Positions 2,035 through 14,221 of a stretch of DNA of 26,578 nt are shown piece after piece. The notes beneath the pieces are model-generated. The model did no database searches. It had not been told where the DNA came from and worked only from the letters and a program-made list of their open reading frames with translations. Positions within the stretch are counted from its first letter, which is position 1, and every line of letters begins with the position of its first letter. Source of the stretch: a virus. Where the stretch lies: IMG/VR virus record IMGVR_UViG_3300018012_000011, positions 1 to 26,578 of that record; one strand, written 5' to 3'. Position numbers and translations under genes: made by a program.

Positions 2035-4644
2035 CTAAGCCGCTTCGTTGCCGCCGGAGAATTTGGCCAGGCGCTCGGCCTGGACCAGCTTCTTGTTGGC
2101 CGGGTCAGCATACACCTTGGCGAACGCCTGCGCCTCGGTGAGCTGCGGCTGCGTCTTGCGCAGTTCGGTCGCCTTGGCCACCAGCTCCTCGTAAGGCGTC
2201 ATCACGACGTCGCGGCCGTTGGCGCCGAATTCCTTGAACACGCCACCCTCTTTCGCCGCGGCGATGGCCGACGTCATGTCCTTCTCGAATTCCTCGACGG
2301 CGGCCTTTTCCTCGGGCGTCTTGGCGTTCTTGCACATGGTCATGAACGCCTTGCCCTTGGACGCCTGCAATCCCATCGCCTCGACGCGCTTGGTGAACAA
2401 GGCGAGCTGCGCGTCATCCTCAAGCTGCGCGACGCGCTTGGCGAGGGCCTCTTTCTCCGATTGCACCTTGGCGAGTTCCAGCGATTCAACGAGCGCATCG
2501 CCGCCGCGCTTGCGCATCATCTCACGGCGCTCGGCATGTTCGGCGCGGCGGAACTTCGCCTTGGCTTCGTCGTCTTCGAGGCCATCATGATGCGCGCGTT
2601 CCTCTTCGGTCATCTCGGCCTTTTCGAGCCTGGCCTTGAGGTCGGCCGCCTCCTTGCGCAATTTCGCAATTTCGTCGTCCTTGGCCTTCTCGGCGGCGCC
2701 GGTCAGCTTGGCGACGGCGGCGGTGATCTGGTCGGCGGTAGCATCAGCCGGGAGGCCGAGCGCCTTTTTCAGTTCTGCTGACATTTCGATCTCCTCGGGA
2801 GCGTCCGGGCTGCCCCCGGACAAGGCTTTGGTGAGGTCGGCCGACAGCTCCGCCATGTGCGCCGTGAACTCATCGACCGTCCTGTCGAGCATCGCCGCCT
2901 TGTCGACCGTCTCATCGTCGGCATCGACGATCGAGCGGATGCTTTTGAGCAGCGCGGCGCGCGCCTTGCCGAGCCGGCCGCCCCAGAACGCATCGACGAC
3001 ATCGGTGACGAGGGAACGCTTGAATGCGTCGGACAGCTCCGATTCCAGGCCGAGCGCCTTGGCCCGGGCGCGGATGTGCGCCTTGGTCCTGGCCGGATTC
3101 TTGGAGCGGCCGATCGCCCGCATCGCGTTGTGGAGGTCGGTGGCGGTCTTGATCGGGAACGAGTTGCCCGTCAGTAATCCGGGACCAAGGACGAATGTCC
3201 CAGTTTCAGGTACGGTTGCGCAGAAGACTTCCTCTGCTTCTTGGATACGCCCAATTTTGGTGATGAACCAGCAAGGTACTTCCGGATCTTCTCCAGGCCG
3301 ATGCGTTCCACCCAGCCGAGACTCGTATTGCAGTTGTGACAGAGAAGGCCGCGCACCATCAAGGTCGTATGGCAATGATCGATCGCCAATCGATTCCAGC
3401 GCACCGTCTCTTCCGCCTTGCCGCAAAGAGCGCAAACCGCTCCCTGCTTCTTCAGCATCGCGTCGTAGTCCGCCTGCGCGAGAGCGTAAAAGCGCAATTT
3501 CTTTTTTTTGTTCTTCTCTGAAATCTCCTCGCGATGCGCCTTGGCATATGCTCGCACTCTCTTTTTGACGCAGTTCTTGCAGTCGCGACGATAGCGACCG
3601 TCCTTTCTTCTCCAGGAAAAGGCACTCAGCGGTCGCGTCTCGCCGCAAAGCGAGCATATCTGCGTCTGTTTTTGTGCGCGCGTTTTTGGCGATGAAGTGA
3701 GTGGGAGGTTGTAATATCTCTTCCGGAACTTTTTCTTCGAACATTCCTTGCAGTCGCGTGTCAGATATCTCTGCCCTTTGTACCCGTTCGCGACATAATA
3801 CTCTGTGAGAGGAAGCAGTTTGTCGCACGTCCGGCATTGACGCTCGCCCGGCTTGGCGAGATTCTTCCTTGCAGCCATTGATCGCTCCACACAGCGGTTC
3901 GTGGTCAGGGATGGCAGCGCATGTCAGTGCGCATGCCGTCCCGCTAATAAATGGAATTGTATCACCTTGTGACAAGTCGCGGGTCATCACTTCGGTGCCA
4001 TCGGACAGAATCCAGCGATGGCCGAGCGACGCCTTCACTGAGAACATGGCCGGCCCGCAGGCAAATTCAATTTCGACGACAGGCTTTCTGCCATAGCTGG
4101 CGATCGTCGCTTTCTCCCATCGACCGAACCACTCGCTGTCTGAGGTGAGAACGTCAACTTCAGCGCCAACGAGTTCGGCAATCGGAAACGTCCCTGCCTT
4201 GGTTATGATCGGAGTATCGCCCGTGACGCAGCCGTCAGGCTCGGCGGCGCCGCTTTCGGCGTCCGATCGGCGTTCTTCCTCGCTGAATTCGCGCTTCCAA
4301 TAGGGCTCGTCATATTTCGCGATGAGGGCGGCGATGGTCTCGCCGCCCTCCGTTTCGCCGGCAGCCTTGCCGATGGCGGCATTGGCGACGCGGATCGCGT
4401 AGCCTTCGTCGCCCTTGTCCGCCAGTGCGGCGTTGGCGATGGCCGCCCAGCGCTTTTGTTTTTCCGGCGTGTCGGCCTTCTTGGTGTGGCCCTGGGCATC
4501 ACTCGGCTGCCACGGCATGGTGTCGTCCTCGCGCTTGAGAATTTTCATGCGGGCATGCGCCTGCGCCGGGTTGTCCACCGCCGATATCTCATCGAGGCGG
4601 AAAACGCGCATGATGCGGCGCCGGGTGTGATCGAGCTTGTTCAT
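2035..4644 (-). CDS. Scaffold/head-assembly protein interrupted by an intein
   Basis: The precursor is 869 residues, starting MNKLDHTRRRIMRVFRLDEI at 4644 with GAGGTC at 4651-4656. The frame stays open upstream to 4923, but no ribosome site supports a longer form. Residues 139-494 are an intein. Splicing would join ...AAEPDG to SFPIKTATDLHNAMRAIG and give a 513-residue protein. The N-terminal host part has the 'DEISAVDNPAQ' motif common to phage head protease and scaffold proteins. The segment after the intein (SKNPARTKAHIRARAKALG) is common in the same proteins. The C-terminal 250 residues are highly charged and coiled-coil (KAKDDEIAKLRKEAADLKAR), as in internal scaffolds. The gene lies between a cysteine-peptidase-like gene and the decoration gene. 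Its exact role as scaffold, minor capsid or both is inferred. Confidence 0.75.
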   Translation of the reverse strand: MNKLDHTRRRIMRVFRLDEISAVDNPAQAHARMKILKREDDTMPWQPSDAQGHTKKADTPEKQKRWAAIANAALADKGDEGYAIRVANAAIGKAAGETEGGETIAALIAKYDEPYWKREFSEEERRSDAESGAAEPDGCVTGDTPIITKAGTFPIAELVGAEVDVLTSDSEWFGRWEKATIASYGRKPVVEIEFACGPAMFSVKASLGHRWILSDGTEVMTRDLSQGDTIPFISGTACALTCAAIPDHEPLCGAINGCKEESRQAGRASMPDVRQTASSHRVLCRERVQRAEISDTRLQGMFEEKVPEEILQPPTHFIAKNARTKTDADMLALRRDATAECLFLEKKGRSLSSRLQELRQKESASICQGASRGDFREEQKKEIALLRSRAGGLRRDAEEAGSGLRSLRQGGRDGALESIGDRSLPYDLDGARPSLSQLQYESRLGGTHRPGEDPEVPCWFITKIGRIQEAEEVFCATVPETGTFVLGPGLLTGNSFPIKTATDLHNAMRAIGRSKNPARTKAHIRARAKALGLESELSDAFKRSLVTDVVDAFWGGRLGKARAALLKSIRSIVDADDETVDKAAMLDRTVDEFTAHMAELSADLTKALSGGSPDAPEEIEMSAELKKALGLPADATADQITAAVAKLTGAAEKAKDDEIAKLRKEAADLKARLEKAEMTEEERAHHDGLEDDEAKAKFRRAEHAERREMMRKRGGDALVESLELAKVQSEKEALAKRVAQLEDDAQLALFTKRVEAMGLQASKGKAFMTMCKNAKTPEEKAAVEEFEKDMTSAIAAAKEGGVFKEFGANGRDVVMTPYEELVAKATELRKTQPQLTEAQAFAKVYADPANKKLVQAERLAKFSGGNEAA
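3163..4230 (-). mobile_element. Intein in the scaffold-like gene
   Basis: The 356-residue insert begins with Cys (codon 4228-4230) in the block CVTGDTPIITKAGTFPIAEL, which is a standard splicing block A. Block B is visible as FSVKASLGHRWILSDGTEV with its histidine, followed by RDLSQGD. The C-terminal end reads TGTFVLGPGLLTGN, then Ser as the +1 nucleophile (codon 3160-3162). The penultimate residue is Gly rather than the usual His, a known minor variant that can slow or alter Asn cyclisation. The junction sequence DG/SFPIK matches the unbroken motif expected in intein-free relatives. The middle of the intein, about 240 residues, has no recognisable in-frame endonuclease domain. That part is the out-of-frame shadow of the nested endonuclease VII gene, yet it stays free of stop codons. 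Confidence 0.88.
3171..3878 (-). CDS. Endonuclease VII-type homing endonuclease nested in the intein
   Basis: This 235-residue protein lies wholly inside the intein coding region, on the same strand but shifted one base from the intein frame. Start ATG at 3878 has GGAGC about seven bases upstream; a GTG at 3890 is the alternative. Two N-terminal zinc ribbons are visible (CRTCDKLLPLTEYY...CKEC and CSLCGETRPLSAF...CKNC). The nuclease core is CALCGK...LAIDHCHTTLMVRGLLCHNCN, matching recombination endonuclease VII (beta-beta-alpha metal fold: DHCH, RGLLC..CN). It would cut DNA and could spread the intein. Local AT content and long A/T runs near 3500-3520 differ from the GC-rich neighbours, which suggests separate acquisition. 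It stops at 3171, eight bases before the intein's last codon, so its 3' end overlaps the C-terminal splicing motif. Confidence 0.85.
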   Translation of the reverse strand: MAARKNLAKPGERQCRTCDKLLPLTEYYVANGYKGQRYLTRDCKECSKKKFRKRYYNLPLTSSPKTRAQKQTQICSLCGETRPLSAFSWRRKDGRYRRDCKNCVKKRVRAYAKAHREEISEKNKKKKLRFYALAQADYDAMLKKQGAVCALCGKAEETVRWNRLAIDHCHTTLMVRGLLCHNCNTSLGWVERIGLEKIRKYLAGSSPKLGVSKKQRKSSAQPYLKLGHSSLVPDY

Positions 4645-4705: not shown

Positions 4706-5926
4706 TCAACGCCCGCGCCGGCCAGGATGGCCAGGCCAGCGTTCATCCCGGTGATCGTCCTCCCGAGGCTGTCCGTGCGAACTTTCAGCCGGTATCTGGA
4801 ACGACGACACATAGGCCGCATAGGCGCTGGCAGAGAGGTTATCGGCCAGCCAGGCTGCCGAGCCCGGTTCGTCGGCACCGGACCGGCGATTGTCATCCTC
4901 CAGAGACCGGACCAGGCTCGCATAGGCGCGGGCGGACAGATTTTGTCCGAGCCAGGAGGCTGAGCCGGGGACCTGTGCCACGACAGGCGGCGTGGGTGCG
5001 GGCGCTGGCGGCGCTGGCGGCGCTGGCGGCGCTGGCGGCGTGGGCGCTGGCGTGGGCGGTGTGGGCGTTGGCGGCGTGACGTTCCCGCCCAAATCGTTGA
5101 AGTCGGTCACCATCGCCGCCCAGGCGAGGCCGGTGGGTGCGAGCTGGGACGCCGTGTTGATGCTGTCCTGCATCAGCACGCTGTAGCACTCGCCGCCGGC
5201 ACTCGCGACGGCGTATGTGGCGAGCCACTGCGGCGTCACATAGCCCCACATTCCCCAGGTCAGCAGGACGTAATAGAGGGTGCCGTTGACGAGGACGTAG
5301 CCGACGATCGGGAAGCAATGCCCGTTGTCCGGGTCCGGCGGGTTGCTCGTATCGCTCCAGACGAAGCCGTTTGCGGTCGGCATGTTGCTGGTGATGTCGT
5401 CCGGCAGATTGGCACCGATCACATCATTCTCGAACAGATAAATACTCTGCTGCAATTCGGTGGCATCGGTCGCATCGACCGAGAGCCAGCCCGCGGGCGC
5501 GTTCGCCATGGTGCCGATCGGCGCGCCCTGCGCTTGCCAGGCCTGGAAGGTCGGGACGATATCGCAGCCCTGGTCGCTTGCCGGAGTGCCGTTGTAGCCG
5601 CACCAGCCGTACATCGCCAGGATTTGCGCCTGGGTTTCGATCAAGCCGCCGGCCGGATCGTCTGCGTTGCCGGTGCACACGCCGACGACGTGACCAGGCC
5701 CGGCGGCGATGACACAGTCGCCGTAGATGTCGTTGCCATACATCTGGCTGACGACATTGGGGACGAGAGTCGCGTAGTTGATCGAGGCTGGCGGTGCCGG
5801 CAGCGCACTGCGATTGAGATAGCGCCGGAGCGGCATGACGCCCTTGACGGGGAGGATGGGCGGCATCCGGCGTCCGAGCGCGTACTGCCTGCCCGTTGCC
5901 GGGTGCGTGATGATCTTGACAGACAT
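4706..5926 (-). CDS. Cysteine-peptidase-like protein with proline linker and tandem tail repeats
   Basis: The 406-residue protein starts at 5926 with AGGAGC five bases upstream. Residues 50-280 look like a papain-type fold. Cys71 sits in GNDIYGDCVIAAGPGH, His203 in NGHCFPIVGYVLV, and a TWG motif at 223-225 replaces the usual N-S-W-G. Residues 284-315 form a proline/alanine linker (PTPTPPTPAPTPPAPP). Two repeats of about 37 residues follow, each with the pattern PGSAxWLxxNLSAxAYAxxVxSx (from 320 and 354). The enzyme fold, linker and repeats suggest a virion-attached protein, perhaps a peptidase on the head surface. Asparagine of the triad is not evident, so activity is uncertain. It lies between the XkdF-like protease and the scaffold gene. 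Confidence 0.65.
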   Translation of the reverse strand: MSVKIITHPATGRQYALGRRMPPILPVKGVMPLRRYLNRSALPAPPASINYATLVPNVVSQMYGNDIYGDCVIAAGPGHVVGVCTGNADDPAGGLIETQAQILAMYGWCGYNGTPASDQGCDIVPTFQAWQAQGAPIGTMANAPAGWLSVDATDATELQQSIYLFENDVIGANLPDDITSNMPTANGFVWSDTSNPPDPDNGHCFPIVGYVLVNGTLYYVLLTWGMWGYVTPQWLATYAVASAGGECYSVLMQDSINTASQLAPTGLAWAAMVTDFNDLGGNVTPPTPTPPTPAPTPPAPPAPPAPPAPAPTPPVVAQVPGSASWLGQNLSARAYASLVRSLEDDNRRSGADEPGSAAWLADNLSASAYAAYVSSFQIPAESSHGQPREDDHRDERWPGHPGRRGR

Positions 5927-11725: not shown

Positions 11726-12033
11726 TGCGGGAATCCGATCGCCGCCGGTTCAATGCGGCGAGGAAGCAAGCCCTTCAAGTGCCACTTAACCGATCGCCGC
11801 CGGTTCAACGCGGCGAGATTTCAATATGGCCGACTGGGCAGCCACGAGATGCGTCACGCAACCGATCGCCACCGGTTCAATGCGGCGAGATGCAGAAGGT
11901 CTCGGCGAACGGTGGCGCCAGGTCACTCAACCGATCGCCGCCGGTTCAATGCGGCGAGGATTTGTGCGGCGGTTGGCTAATCATTGGCGTTTACGAGTCA
12001 CTCAACCGATCGCTGCCGGTTCAACGCGGCGAG
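11726..12033 (+). CRISPR. CRISPR array 1 (5 repeats, 4 spacers), upstream of cas12
   Basis: 37-nt repeats lie at 11726-11762 (5' third degenerate), 11781-11817, 11853-11889, 11922-11958 and 11997-12033. Spacers are 18, 35, 32 and 38 nt. The repeat starts GTCAC(G/T)CAACCGATCG and ends GCGGCGAG. It holds a 7-bp stem TCGCCGC/GCGGCGA around a CGGTTCAAC loop. The C/T variant in the left arm (CGCTGC) keeps pairing through G-U, so the stem is under selection. The stem sits at the 3' end of the repeat, next to the spacer, as in Cas12 crRNAs when read on the plus strand. The array ends 33 bases before the cas12 start, so one transcript could carry both. Confidence 0.93.
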
Positions 12034-12066: not shown

Positions 12067-13899
12067 ATGACTGATGATACTGCGCCCGATGACGGCGCCG
12101 GATATGCCGTGACAGTGCAGAAATACGGCTTGCTGCCGCCCCGCGATTGGGATGCGGCCTGCGAGGATGAATTGCGGGGCATGACGGCGTTATGGAACCG
12201 GCTGGTCGAGATCGAGACGGTCCATCGTGCTGCCGTGCTGGCGCTGACGGCGGCCGACGCTGCGGTCGCCGCGGCCGATGGAGATTATGAGGCCGTCCTC
12301 GAACGGCTGCGCGCGGTGCGCGAGAACCGCGCCGGACAGCGGAAGGCGGCCCGCAAGAAGGTGAAGACGCCGGAACTCGATGCCGAGATCGAGGAACTGA
12401 CGGCACGGCTCAGAGACGCCGGCACAATCCGCAAAGAGGCGCGTCGCGCTGCCCGCGCCGACGCCAAGCCGCAGCTCGACGCGCTCAATAAGGAGCGCAA
12501 GGAAGCGGTAAAGATGGCGCGGCAGCAATCGGGGCTCTACTGGGGCAACTACAACGCCGTGGTCGCGTCCTATGAGCGCGGACGCATGCTGGCGGCGAAG
12601 CGCGGCGGCGCCCTGAAATTCCGCCGCCATTGCGACCGGCCGGAAAACGGACTGAGCAGCGCCCGCATCGTCAACCAGATCCAGGGCGGCACCACGGCTG
12701 CCAGGCTCATGGCCGGTGAATGTTCGCAAGTGCGGCTGGCGGGGCTGCAGCCGGCGACATGGAAGTGGCGGCCGGATGTGCCGCGATCCAGCATTCGAGG
12801 CGGCAGAAACGGCAACCGTCAGAACGGGATTCTGTACGCGACGATCTTCCGCCACGACAATGTCCGCCGCCAGGTCGCGTGGCCGATCATCTATGACCAG
12901 CCCATTCCCGAGGACGCCATCATCCAGGAAGTCATCGTCACCCGCCGCAGTGTCGCCGGTGCGTTCGAGTGGAGCGTGTCATTTCTGCTCCGCATGCCGG
13001 CGCTGGCAGCGCCGGCCAGGGACGATACGGCGTGCGGCATCGACCTCGGCTGGCGGCGCCTCAATGACGGCATCCGGGTGGCGACGATCGTGACCGGCGA
13101 CGGTCCCGATGACCGGCAGTTCATTGTGCTGCCGGAGATCTTCATCCGGCGCCAGAACCGCGTCGCCGAACTCGATTCTATGCGCGCGCTCGCGGCCGAC
13201 AAGGCGCGCGCGCCGCTGCGGGCGCTGACCTGGCCGGACGCGCCAGAGGCGCTGCGCCCGCTGGCGATGAAGGCGCTGCGCACCAAGCGGTGCGAACACC
13301 TCCATGATCTCGCGGTGGCGTGGCGCGTGCATCCGGAATGGGAGCCGGAAGCGGCGGCGGCGCTGCATTTGTGGCGGGCGCAGGATCGCAAGGACTGGCA
13401 GGAGCATGACGGCCTGGCGCGGCGCATCGGCAATGCGCGGCGCGATATCTACCGCTGCGCCGTCAAACCGCTGGCCGAGCGTTACGGTGTGATCGGCATC
13501 GAAGACGTCGACTGGGCGGCGATCGGCCGTCGCATCGATAACGACGGCGCCGACAATGACATCGCGACGGCGACGGCGGCCTATCGGCGGCTGGCGGCAC
13601 CGGGCATGTTCCTGCTCGAATTGCGGCGCGCGGCAGCGGCGGCCGGCGCGCGCGTCCATGTCCACCGCGGCAAGTCGACCTGGATCTGCCAGGCATGCGG
13701 CACCGAACAGGCGCCTGCCGATCCCGCCGCGCTGATCCATACCTGTCCGCATTGCCACGCGGCCTGGGACCAGGACGTCAACGCCGCCCGCAATCTGCGC
13801 GCCGCCGCGATGGCGAGCGCTCCGGTGCCGCCCGATGACCCGGCAGCGCTCGCAGACGGAAACGCCGGCAATGACGAGGCGATGGACGATGCAGCATGA
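12067..13899 (+). CDS. cas12m: Cas12 effector, probably type V-M (Cas12m-like)
   Basis: The 610-residue protein is flanked by CRISPR arrays. The C-terminal half has a full RuvC nuclease: Asp326 in CGIDLGWR, Glu479 in YGVIGIEDVDW, Asp570 in WDQDVNAARNL. A zinc ribbon (Cys541/544 CQACG and Cys560/563 CPHC) lies between motifs II and III. The N-terminal region is helical, with a coiled coil at 50-155, then QSGLYWGNYNAVV (155-167), RRH (186-188) and WKWRPD (232-237). Length, GLYWxxYN, DLGWR, AxxxDRKxWxxx and 'AAPGxxLxxLRxAA' match what I remember of Cas12m. Characterised members bind DNA and silence without cutting, with an altered RuvC site as I recall; here D-E-D is intact. There is no cas1, cas2 or cas4 nearby. 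Start ATG 12067 has a weak GAAAG nine bases upstream. Confidence 0.85.
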   Translation: MTDDTAPDDGAGYAVTVQKYGLLPPRDWDAACEDELRGMTALWNRLVEIETVHRAAVLALTAADAAVAAADGDYEAVLERLRAVRENRAGQRKAARKKVKTPELDAEIEELTARLRDAGTIRKEARRAARADAKPQLDALNKERKEAVKMARQQSGLYWGNYNAVVASYERGRMLAAKRGGALKFRRHCDRPENGLSSARIVNQIQGGTTAARLMAGECSQVRLAGLQPATWKWRPDVPRSSIRGGRNGNRQNGILYATIFRHDNVRRQVAWPIIYDQPIPEDAIIQEVIVTRRSVAGAFEWSVSFLLRMPALAAPARDDTACGIDLGWRRLNDGIRVATIVTGDGPDDRQFIVLPEIFIRRQNRVAELDSMRALAADKARAPLRALTWPDAPEALRPLAMKALRTKRCEHLHDLAVAWRVHPEWEPEAAAALHLWRAQDRKDWQEHDGLARRIGNARRDIYRCAVKPLAERYGVIGIEDVDWAAIGRRIDNDGADNDIATATAAYRRLAAPGMFLLELRRAAAAAGARVHVHRGKSTWICQACGTEQAPADPAALIHTCPHCHAAWDQDVNAARNLRAAAMASAPVPPDDPAALADGNAGNDEAMDDAA

Positions 13900-13984: not shown

Positions 13985-14221
13985 GCTCGAAAACCGATCG
14001 CTGCCGGTTCAATGCTGCGAGTTCCTCGGCTGGAGAACATTGCTCCGTCACAGTTCGTCGCTCAGCCGATCGCCGCCGGTTCAACGCGGCGAGATTGGGA
14101 TGGACTGGTCCCCCGCTTGCTTGATGAAAGTGACGCAACCGATCGCTGCCGGTTCAACGCGGCGAGCCGATGTGTGCAACTACTGTCACGCAACCGATCG
14201 CTGCCGGTTCAACGCGGCGGG
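13985..14221 (+). CRISPR. CRISPR array 2 (4 repeats, 3 spacers), downstream of cas12
   Basis: Repeats of 37 nt lie at 13985-14021 (degenerate at the 5' end and in the right stem arm), 14057-14093, 14130-14166 and 14185-14221 (last bases GGG rather than GAG). Spacers are 35, 36 and 18 nt. The repeat and orientation are the same as in array 1, so both arrays can serve one effector. It begins 85 bases after the cas12 stop. None of its spacers, nor those of array 1, has a match elsewhere in this window that I could see. Confidence 0.93.

Follow-up and report, generated by a model that had tools for sequence, protein, structure and literature searches.

The question raised by this locus is whether a phage intein can carry its homing endonuclease as a separate gene in another reading frame. 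The locus lies in a metagenomic virus record (IMG/VR IMGVR_UViG_3300018012_000011, positions 1 to 26,578), and the whole of this 26,578 nucleotide (nt) stretch, referred to here as the window, was analysed. On its minus strand a phage gene is interrupted by a 356-residue intein, and within the intein DNA lies an endonuclease VII (EndoVII) gene that is read one base out of phase with the intein. Very probably this is a two-layer mobile intein, in which a splicing host frame is combined with a separate, out-of-frame EndoVII nuclease for homing. An earlier reading of the letters and open reading frames alone (the original prediction) had proposed an intein with an out-of-frame EndoVII gene at 3171-3878, and on closer analysis both frames proved to be intact.

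The intein, its host gene and the nested nuclease

The features on which the argument rests are as follows.

2035 to 4644, minus strand: host gene, intein included, 869 codons (weak matches to PF10123, E=9e-4, and phrog_3894, E=0.003)
4231 to 4644, minus strand: N-extein, C-terminal end ...SGAAEPDG (empty-site homologues read ...DG/SFPI, the slash marking the junction)
2038 to 3162, minus strand: C-extein, starting SFPIKTATDLHNAM (extein comparison with homologues)
3163 to 4230, minus strand: intein, 356 residues, Cys1 to Asn356, followed by Ser+1 (open translation; Hint fold by model and fold comparison)
4192 to 4230, minus strand: intein block A, CVTGDTPIITKAG (TIGR01445 E=0.003, below its cut-off; alignment)
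4009 to 4041, minus strand: intein block B, VKASLGHRWI, with Ser68-x-x-His71 (alignment with TerL inteins, in which His71 is invariant)
3289 to 3939, minus strand: intein residues 98-314, a linker that the nuclease gene encodes in its other frame and that is predicted to be disordered
3187 to 3228, minus strand: intein block F, VFCATVPETGTFVL, overlapped by the 3' end of the nuclease gene (sequence, alignment)
3163 to 3186, minus strand: intein block G, GPGLLTGN, with the nuclease stop (3171-3173) inside it (TIGR01443 E=0.07, below its cut-off)
3171 to 3878, minus strand: EndoVII (HNH/beta-beta-alpha-Me) gene, 708 base pairs, 235 residues plus stop, offset +1 from the intein frame
3273 to 3500, minus strand: Endonuclease_7 domain, DHCH...RGLLCHNCN (PF02945; invariant alignment columns)
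3885 to 3888, minus strand: Shine-Dalgarno-like GGAG, 6 nt upstream of the nuclease ATG (sequence context)

The intein translation is free of stops; it begins CVTGDTPIITKAG, and its C-terminal end is given as TVPETGTFVLGPGLLTGN or EEVFCATVPETGTFVLGPGLLTGN. All class 1 splicing residues are present, namely Cys1, Ser68-x-x-His71 (Ser68-Leu-Gly-His71), Asn356 and Ser+1. An AlphaFold model of the intein gave a predicted local distance difference test score (pLDDT) of about 70-96 at residues 1-97 and about 60-95 at residues 315-356, and the ~217-residue linker at 98-314 was mostly at a pLDDT of about 30, with one helix at 234-263. The top match in a fold comparison was the splicing domain of the Mtu RecA intein (Z 19.4, 133 residues, 2.0 A), followed by entries that include the Ssp DnaB intein (Z 19.2), and the matches shown were all inteins or other Hint domains; a PDB sequence search with the joined splicing halves returned a weak DnaE intein match only. 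Judged by this model, the element is a real intein with a Hint fold built from residues ~1-97 and ~315-356 and a disordered linker between them.

The host open reading frame runs without a stop from 4923 to 2035 on the minus strand, with the ATG at 4644 as the assumed start. Its weak profile matches hint at a phage head-gene product resembling Mu-like gpI (Mu-like prophage I protein) or a head maturation protease. The intein insertion is precise and in-frame, at a conserved position in a protein that is continuous apart from it: homologous IMG/VR genes are uninterrupted there and read DG/SFPI or DG/SYPI, and in a C-extein scan that yielded 29 loci, every one with readable flanks was intein-free. 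Excision of the intein would join ...EPDG/SFPIKTATDLHNAM... (EPDG/SFPIK), matching the continuous sequence of the empty-site relatives, and ligation is predicted to give, counted from the ATG at 4644, a protein of 869-356 = 513 residues, the length of about 513 that had been forecast for it.

The nested gene product matches Pfam Endonuclease_7 (PF02945) at 2e-17 and phrog_2633 at 8e-34, and keeps D-H-x-H, N and the paired Cys residues, that is, every Zn/HNH residue that is invariant in the EndoVII alignment. By its sequence it certainly belongs to the EndoVII family. A PDB sequence search with the nuclease gave a weak Hpy99I match only, and fold prediction from its single sequence was uninformative (pLDDT 44). 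The ribosome site of its own that had been claimed for the gene is the GGAG before its ATG. The nuclease stop lies 8 nt short of the intein end, and the nuclease tail (last ~50 bases) therefore overlaps blocks F and G, in agreement with the earlier claim that the 3' end of the nuclease gene also encodes the last splicing motif. The overlap in the window is tighter at this 3' end of the nuclease gene because the tail of the nuclease doubles as these two splicing blocks.

The open intein frame and inteins with the same nesting

With the nuclease protein held fixed, 7.3 stops (host codon usage) or 9.5 stops (synonymous shuffling) would be expected in the intein frame and none was observed, so the frame is open through all 708 bases as originally described; a stop-free intein frame arose in 0/5000 simulations under either model. 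In a separate earlier run, with codon usage taken from a larger set of phage genes, the open intein frame had P = 0.0009, and the third, unused frame has 5 stops across the window nuclease. A place was defined as dangerous where a nuclease codon is able to end in T and the next codon starts with AA, AG or GA, a T there creating an intein-frame stop. Codons ending in T were found at 0/39 dangerous places versus 40/126 elsewhere (Fisher p 7e-6). As a survey control, 77 EndoVII genes outside the nested arrangement were inspected, of which 5 had an open +1 frame and 2 an open +2 frame.

No homologue of the window intein was found by tblastn in phages or by degenerate-pattern IMG/VR scans (full and joined splicing-domain queries), and none was found in seven single genomes or 398 Pseudomonadota genomes, which is weak evidence, a positive control genome being lacking. 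For this reason all frames of other phage inteins were examined. The TerL intein of cyanophage S-EIV1 (KJ410740) holds an out-of-frame 233-residue HNH protein, the gene for which has AGGAG upstream of a GTG start and ends inside block F; its codons end in T at 0/39 dangerous places versus 61/128 elsewhere (p 1e-9). An out-of-frame HNH protein related to that of S-EIV1 is nested in the TerL intein of Gordonia phage Clown, which sits just before a similar TerL motif, IDDP-V/I-K. Screening of the 80 IMG/VR EndoVII loci closest to the window nuclease identified a TerL intein (L109) with an out-of-frame EndoVII in the other shifted frame (+2), and its relatives in the isolated phages Affeca, Angelicage, Vivi2, Phlyer, phi1_186018 and Vincenzo are nested alike. 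The TerL6-f intein DNA of phage Chandler differs from that of Phlyer by 1 base and likewise has a nested out-of-frame EndoVII. A nested out-of-frame nuclease was not found in the other phage inteins inspected (L012-L018, L143 and L144), and four loci of the EndoVII screen (L059, L061, L067 and L074) in which a second frame is open across the nuclease were without intein motifs and were judged to be due to chance.

A profile search reported 500 relatives in IMG/VR and further ones in GTDB genomes. Among the best 80 viral and 11 genomic TerL loci fetched that carry EndoVII, the nuclease was out of frame in 91/91; the genomic loci include Nonomuraea, Bradyrhizobium, Gallionellaceae, Endozoicomonas, Mycolicibacterium, Sulfuritalea, Geobacteraceae, Chloroflexi and Berkelbacteria. 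Together with seven found earlier these make 98 inteins, all at one TerL site (.../C...N/T-(R or W)-W...), of which 79 are non-redundant at 90% nucleotide identity. The comparison of related inteins for which the original prediction had called thus returned the same nesting in the 79 non-redundant TerL members, S-EIV1 and Clown. Its description of the arrangement as rare did not survive, as nesting was seen in at least three different combinations of nuclease, frame and site and in one large TerL family. That the three groups differ in nuclease family, frame offset (+1, +1, +2) and insertion site suggests that they arose independently.

Host-frame stops inside the nuclease gene numbered 0 in the 79 TerL inteins, versus 90 (own-codon shuffling) or 181 (extein codon usage) expected, and the third frame held 693. 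The pooled P of about 10^-55 (own-codon shuffling) treats related sequences as independent, and zero stops in 79 is the safer statement; the pooled test was used because stop avoidance is weak evidence on its own for single GC-rich actinophage members. In TerL pairs 15-25% divergent, differences at nuclease codon positions 1/2/3 within the overlap were 0.156/0.096/0.428, and differences at host codon positions 1/2/3 in the splicing domain were 0.121/0.092/0.425. The fastest site in the overlap is the host-frame second codon position, and host residues there are therefore free to change while the frame is kept open. By these substitution patterns the TerL nuclease protein is under purifying selection, and the intein frame in the overlap is merely kept stop-free. 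The original proposal of selection on both products accordingly holds in part: codon constraint across the TerL homologues is found in the nuclease frame in the overlap and in the intein frame outside it, but not on intein-frame residues within the overlap, and in the window itself stop avoidance alone is seen. The nuclease start falls at a conserved intein Trp codon and is ATG in 62, GTG in 16, TTG in 1 and CTG in 0 of the 79 members; a four-base Shine-Dalgarno-like motif precedes it in 46 members, the motif is weaker in 30, and 3 have none. With the start fixed in 79/79, internal initiation is supported over frameshifting.

Several further loci were noted beside this family. On a Streptomyces anulatus plasmid (NZ_CP108377; L306, 1308-3749) a terminase gene is interrupted by an intein of the same nested kind, and its annotation reads just 'terminase family protein'. 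The annotation of phage Vincenzo carries the note 'homing endonuclease in intein', so some annotators may have noticed such a nuclease. A 148-residue mini-intein without a nuclease (L237, 2747-3190) occupies the TerL site that is used by the 79 nested inteins and is possibly their ancestor or a loss state. At L121 (2501-2977) an EndoVII gene lies out of frame over the 5' half of a capsid-like open reading frame (2496-3815) without intein motifs, which could be an intron or a case like the ShiLan domain discussed below. In Streptococcus phage vB_SagM-GXN1 (L145, 2001-3715) the N-terminal part of an intein stops, and the C-terminal intein part and extein go on in the +1 frame from about 3340, reflecting either a split (fractured) intein or a frameshift.

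Elsewhere in the window, the gene upstream of the host gene (4706-5926, minus strand) contains a Pro/Ala-rich repeat stretch (PPAPPAPPAPPAPAP) from short tandem repeats. A compact, phage-encoded type V effector lies at 12067-13899 on the plus strand (PADLOC Cas12u1, 5e-86), and direct repeats of ~31 nt are present on both sides of it (11732-12033 and 13991-14221; nine copies) with CRISPR-like spacing (55-75 nt). Judged by gene and repeats, this is a mini-CRISPR in the phage genome.

Known systems and alternative explanations

The closest prior art is the non-splicing ShiLan domain. This domain and the Pacc40 gp60 insertion are cases of an out-of-frame HNH gene in a phage methylase, and the ShiLan domain is reported to be without intein motifs, predicted self-splicing or a ribosome site, its authors judging it to be homing (Arsenault, Gosselin and Gogarten 2025; PMC11855218). 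In both the ShiLan domain and the window, a nuclease gene lies out of frame inside an insertion that leaves the host frame open; the window element fails the ShiLan description because a splicing domain is present. The TerL6-f intein of Chandler is published as splicing in E. coli, and no endonuclease is reported for it there (Kelley et al. 2016; PMC5050341). It resembles the window element as a class 1-type intein in a phage gene with a nested out-of-frame EndoVII, the nesting having been found here, and differs in its TerL host and in the nuclease frame, which is +2 where that of the window is +1. Mobile inteins with an in-frame LAGLIDADG or HNH domain, such as BAKA TerL1-b and Bethlehem TerL1-c (PMC5050341), share the homing logic and the splicing halves that flank a nuclease between blocks B and F, but their nuclease is within the spliced-out polypeptide, whereas that of the window would be a separate protein from another frame. 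The T4 endonuclease VII family (PF02945, phrog_2633) has the same nuclease domain with its Cys/His/Asp/Asn residues, usually in free-standing or intron-associated genes, whereas the window copy is nested in an intein. Fractured genes, reportedly described by Dassa and colleagues in 2009, are said to carry a free-standing homing endonuclease between the halves of a split intein; there too the nuclease is encoded between two intein halves as a separate protein, but the host gene is broken in two and the intein splices in trans, whereas in the window one frame is open throughout.

As the window is known from one metagenomic virus record, without a second copy, sequencing or assembly frameshifts might have displaced a nuclease that is truly an ordinary in-frame intein domain, an outcome named in the original prediction as one that would refute it. 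For that to be so, the window must contain two errors that compensate each other, one on either side, and by chance a Shine-Dalgarno motif, a start and an open alternative frame, and dozens of independent records must contain the same, since the nesting is present in isolated phages that were sequenced independently and in about 79 distinct records; T endings are, moreover, avoided precisely where intein-frame stops would arise, and such an artefact is scarcely credible. Two frames overlapping on one strand also make it possible in principle that the nuclease is produced by programmed frameshifting, as a fusion to the N-terminal half of the intein from the host frame. That route appears very improbable, as the nuclease gene has its own Shine-Dalgarno motif and start in the window, in S-EIV1 and, more weakly, in L109, and as the start is kept in every TerL member, CTG, which would leave the same intein residues, never being used. 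Phage group I introns often carry HNH/EndoVII genes, and a self-splicing intron could therefore be the carrier of the nuclease, splicing at the RNA level, with an intein-like frame that is fortuitous. The frame through the element is, however, open and encodes a Hint domain, and there was no Rfam match at the gathering threshold in the window, L019, L109, L137 or L141, although absence of a match is not proof; an intron is extremely unlikely. An insertion of the ShiLan type, kept in the host protein as an open, non-splicing segment with an out-of-frame HNH gene, shares the nuclease arrangement and the open host frame with the window (PMC11855218), but the window has Cys1, the block B Ser..His, block F, Asn356/Ser and a Hint fold at Z 19, whereas both intein motifs and a ribosome site are reportedly missing from the ShiLan domain, and the Chandler intein of related architecture is published as splicing (PMC5050341), which leaves little room for this explanation.

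Less improbable than these, though still unlikely, is that the architecture is as proposed while the nuclease is non-homing or is not made, so that it would be a domesticated or dying passenger in a splicing intein. The invariant Zn/HNH residues are all intact in the window nuclease, the TerL nuclease is under purifying selection with a conserved start codon, and the relatives have intein-free sites, all of which argue for a nuclease in use. On the other side, its activity, translation and homing are read from sequence, its single-sequence model carries no information, and the window intein has no homologues for a selection test. Several other points weigh against the two-layer interpretation. 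The penultimate intein residue is Gly355 rather than the usual (non-defining) His, although the penultimate His is replaced in some phage inteins and splicing is known for the Bethlehem RDF intein, in which this residue is Gly (PMC5050341). Curated intein models match weakly and all below cut-off (TIGR01445 E 0.003, TIGR01443 E 0.07, PF14890 E 0.006-0.04), and the alignment behind the intein fold model consists of other inteins placed by MAFFT at ~17% identity. Because homologues of the window intein were not found, the sign of selection in the window is stop avoidance, not amino-acid conservation. An in-frame nuclease did not turn up in any homologue, but close homologues of the window intein are lacking, and the ranking by which the best 80 TerL loci were chosen favours whole-length host-frame similarity and so is biased against one; the absence of in-frame versions is therefore no census.

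Proposed mechanism and meaning

In the two-layer intein proposed here, the host protein would be translated through the entire element, after which the intein would excise itself and join the exteins. The DNA between blocks B and F would also be read in a frame shifted by one base, starting at a Shine-Dalgarno motif and ATG of its own, to give a separate EndoVII-type HNH nuclease, which would cut intein-free alleles at DG/SFPI, with repair copying the element in. In the overlap it would be the amino-acid sequence of the nuclease that matters, and the intein frame would need only to stay open, yielding the disordered linker. We infer that the window intein splices and that its nuclease is translated, cleaves DNA and homes. 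The nuclease most likely acts as a homing endonuclease; what is observed in this respect is empty sites and a scattered distribution.

Among open-licence PubMed Central papers, none was found that describes an intein with an out-of-frame nuclease inside it, and such a description may exist elsewhere. The textbook intein is a single polypeptide that may or may not include an in-frame homing endonuclease, and an intein with no recognisable endonuclease is placed in the mini or degenerate class. Two-layer inteins are probably a general, unrecognised architecture of mobile inteins, with at least three origins, widespread in phages of several bacterial phyla and including inteins described without a recognised endonuclease. 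If this is true, surveys that read the host frame alone have missed such nucleases, and some 'endonuclease-free' inteins may be mobile, which would explain their spread simply. The family also offers an overlapping-gene system traceable across about 80 natural variants, including cultured phages of Mycobacterium smegmatis and Gordonia, and the tolerance of the splicing domain for a long disordered linker would be relevant to intein engineering.

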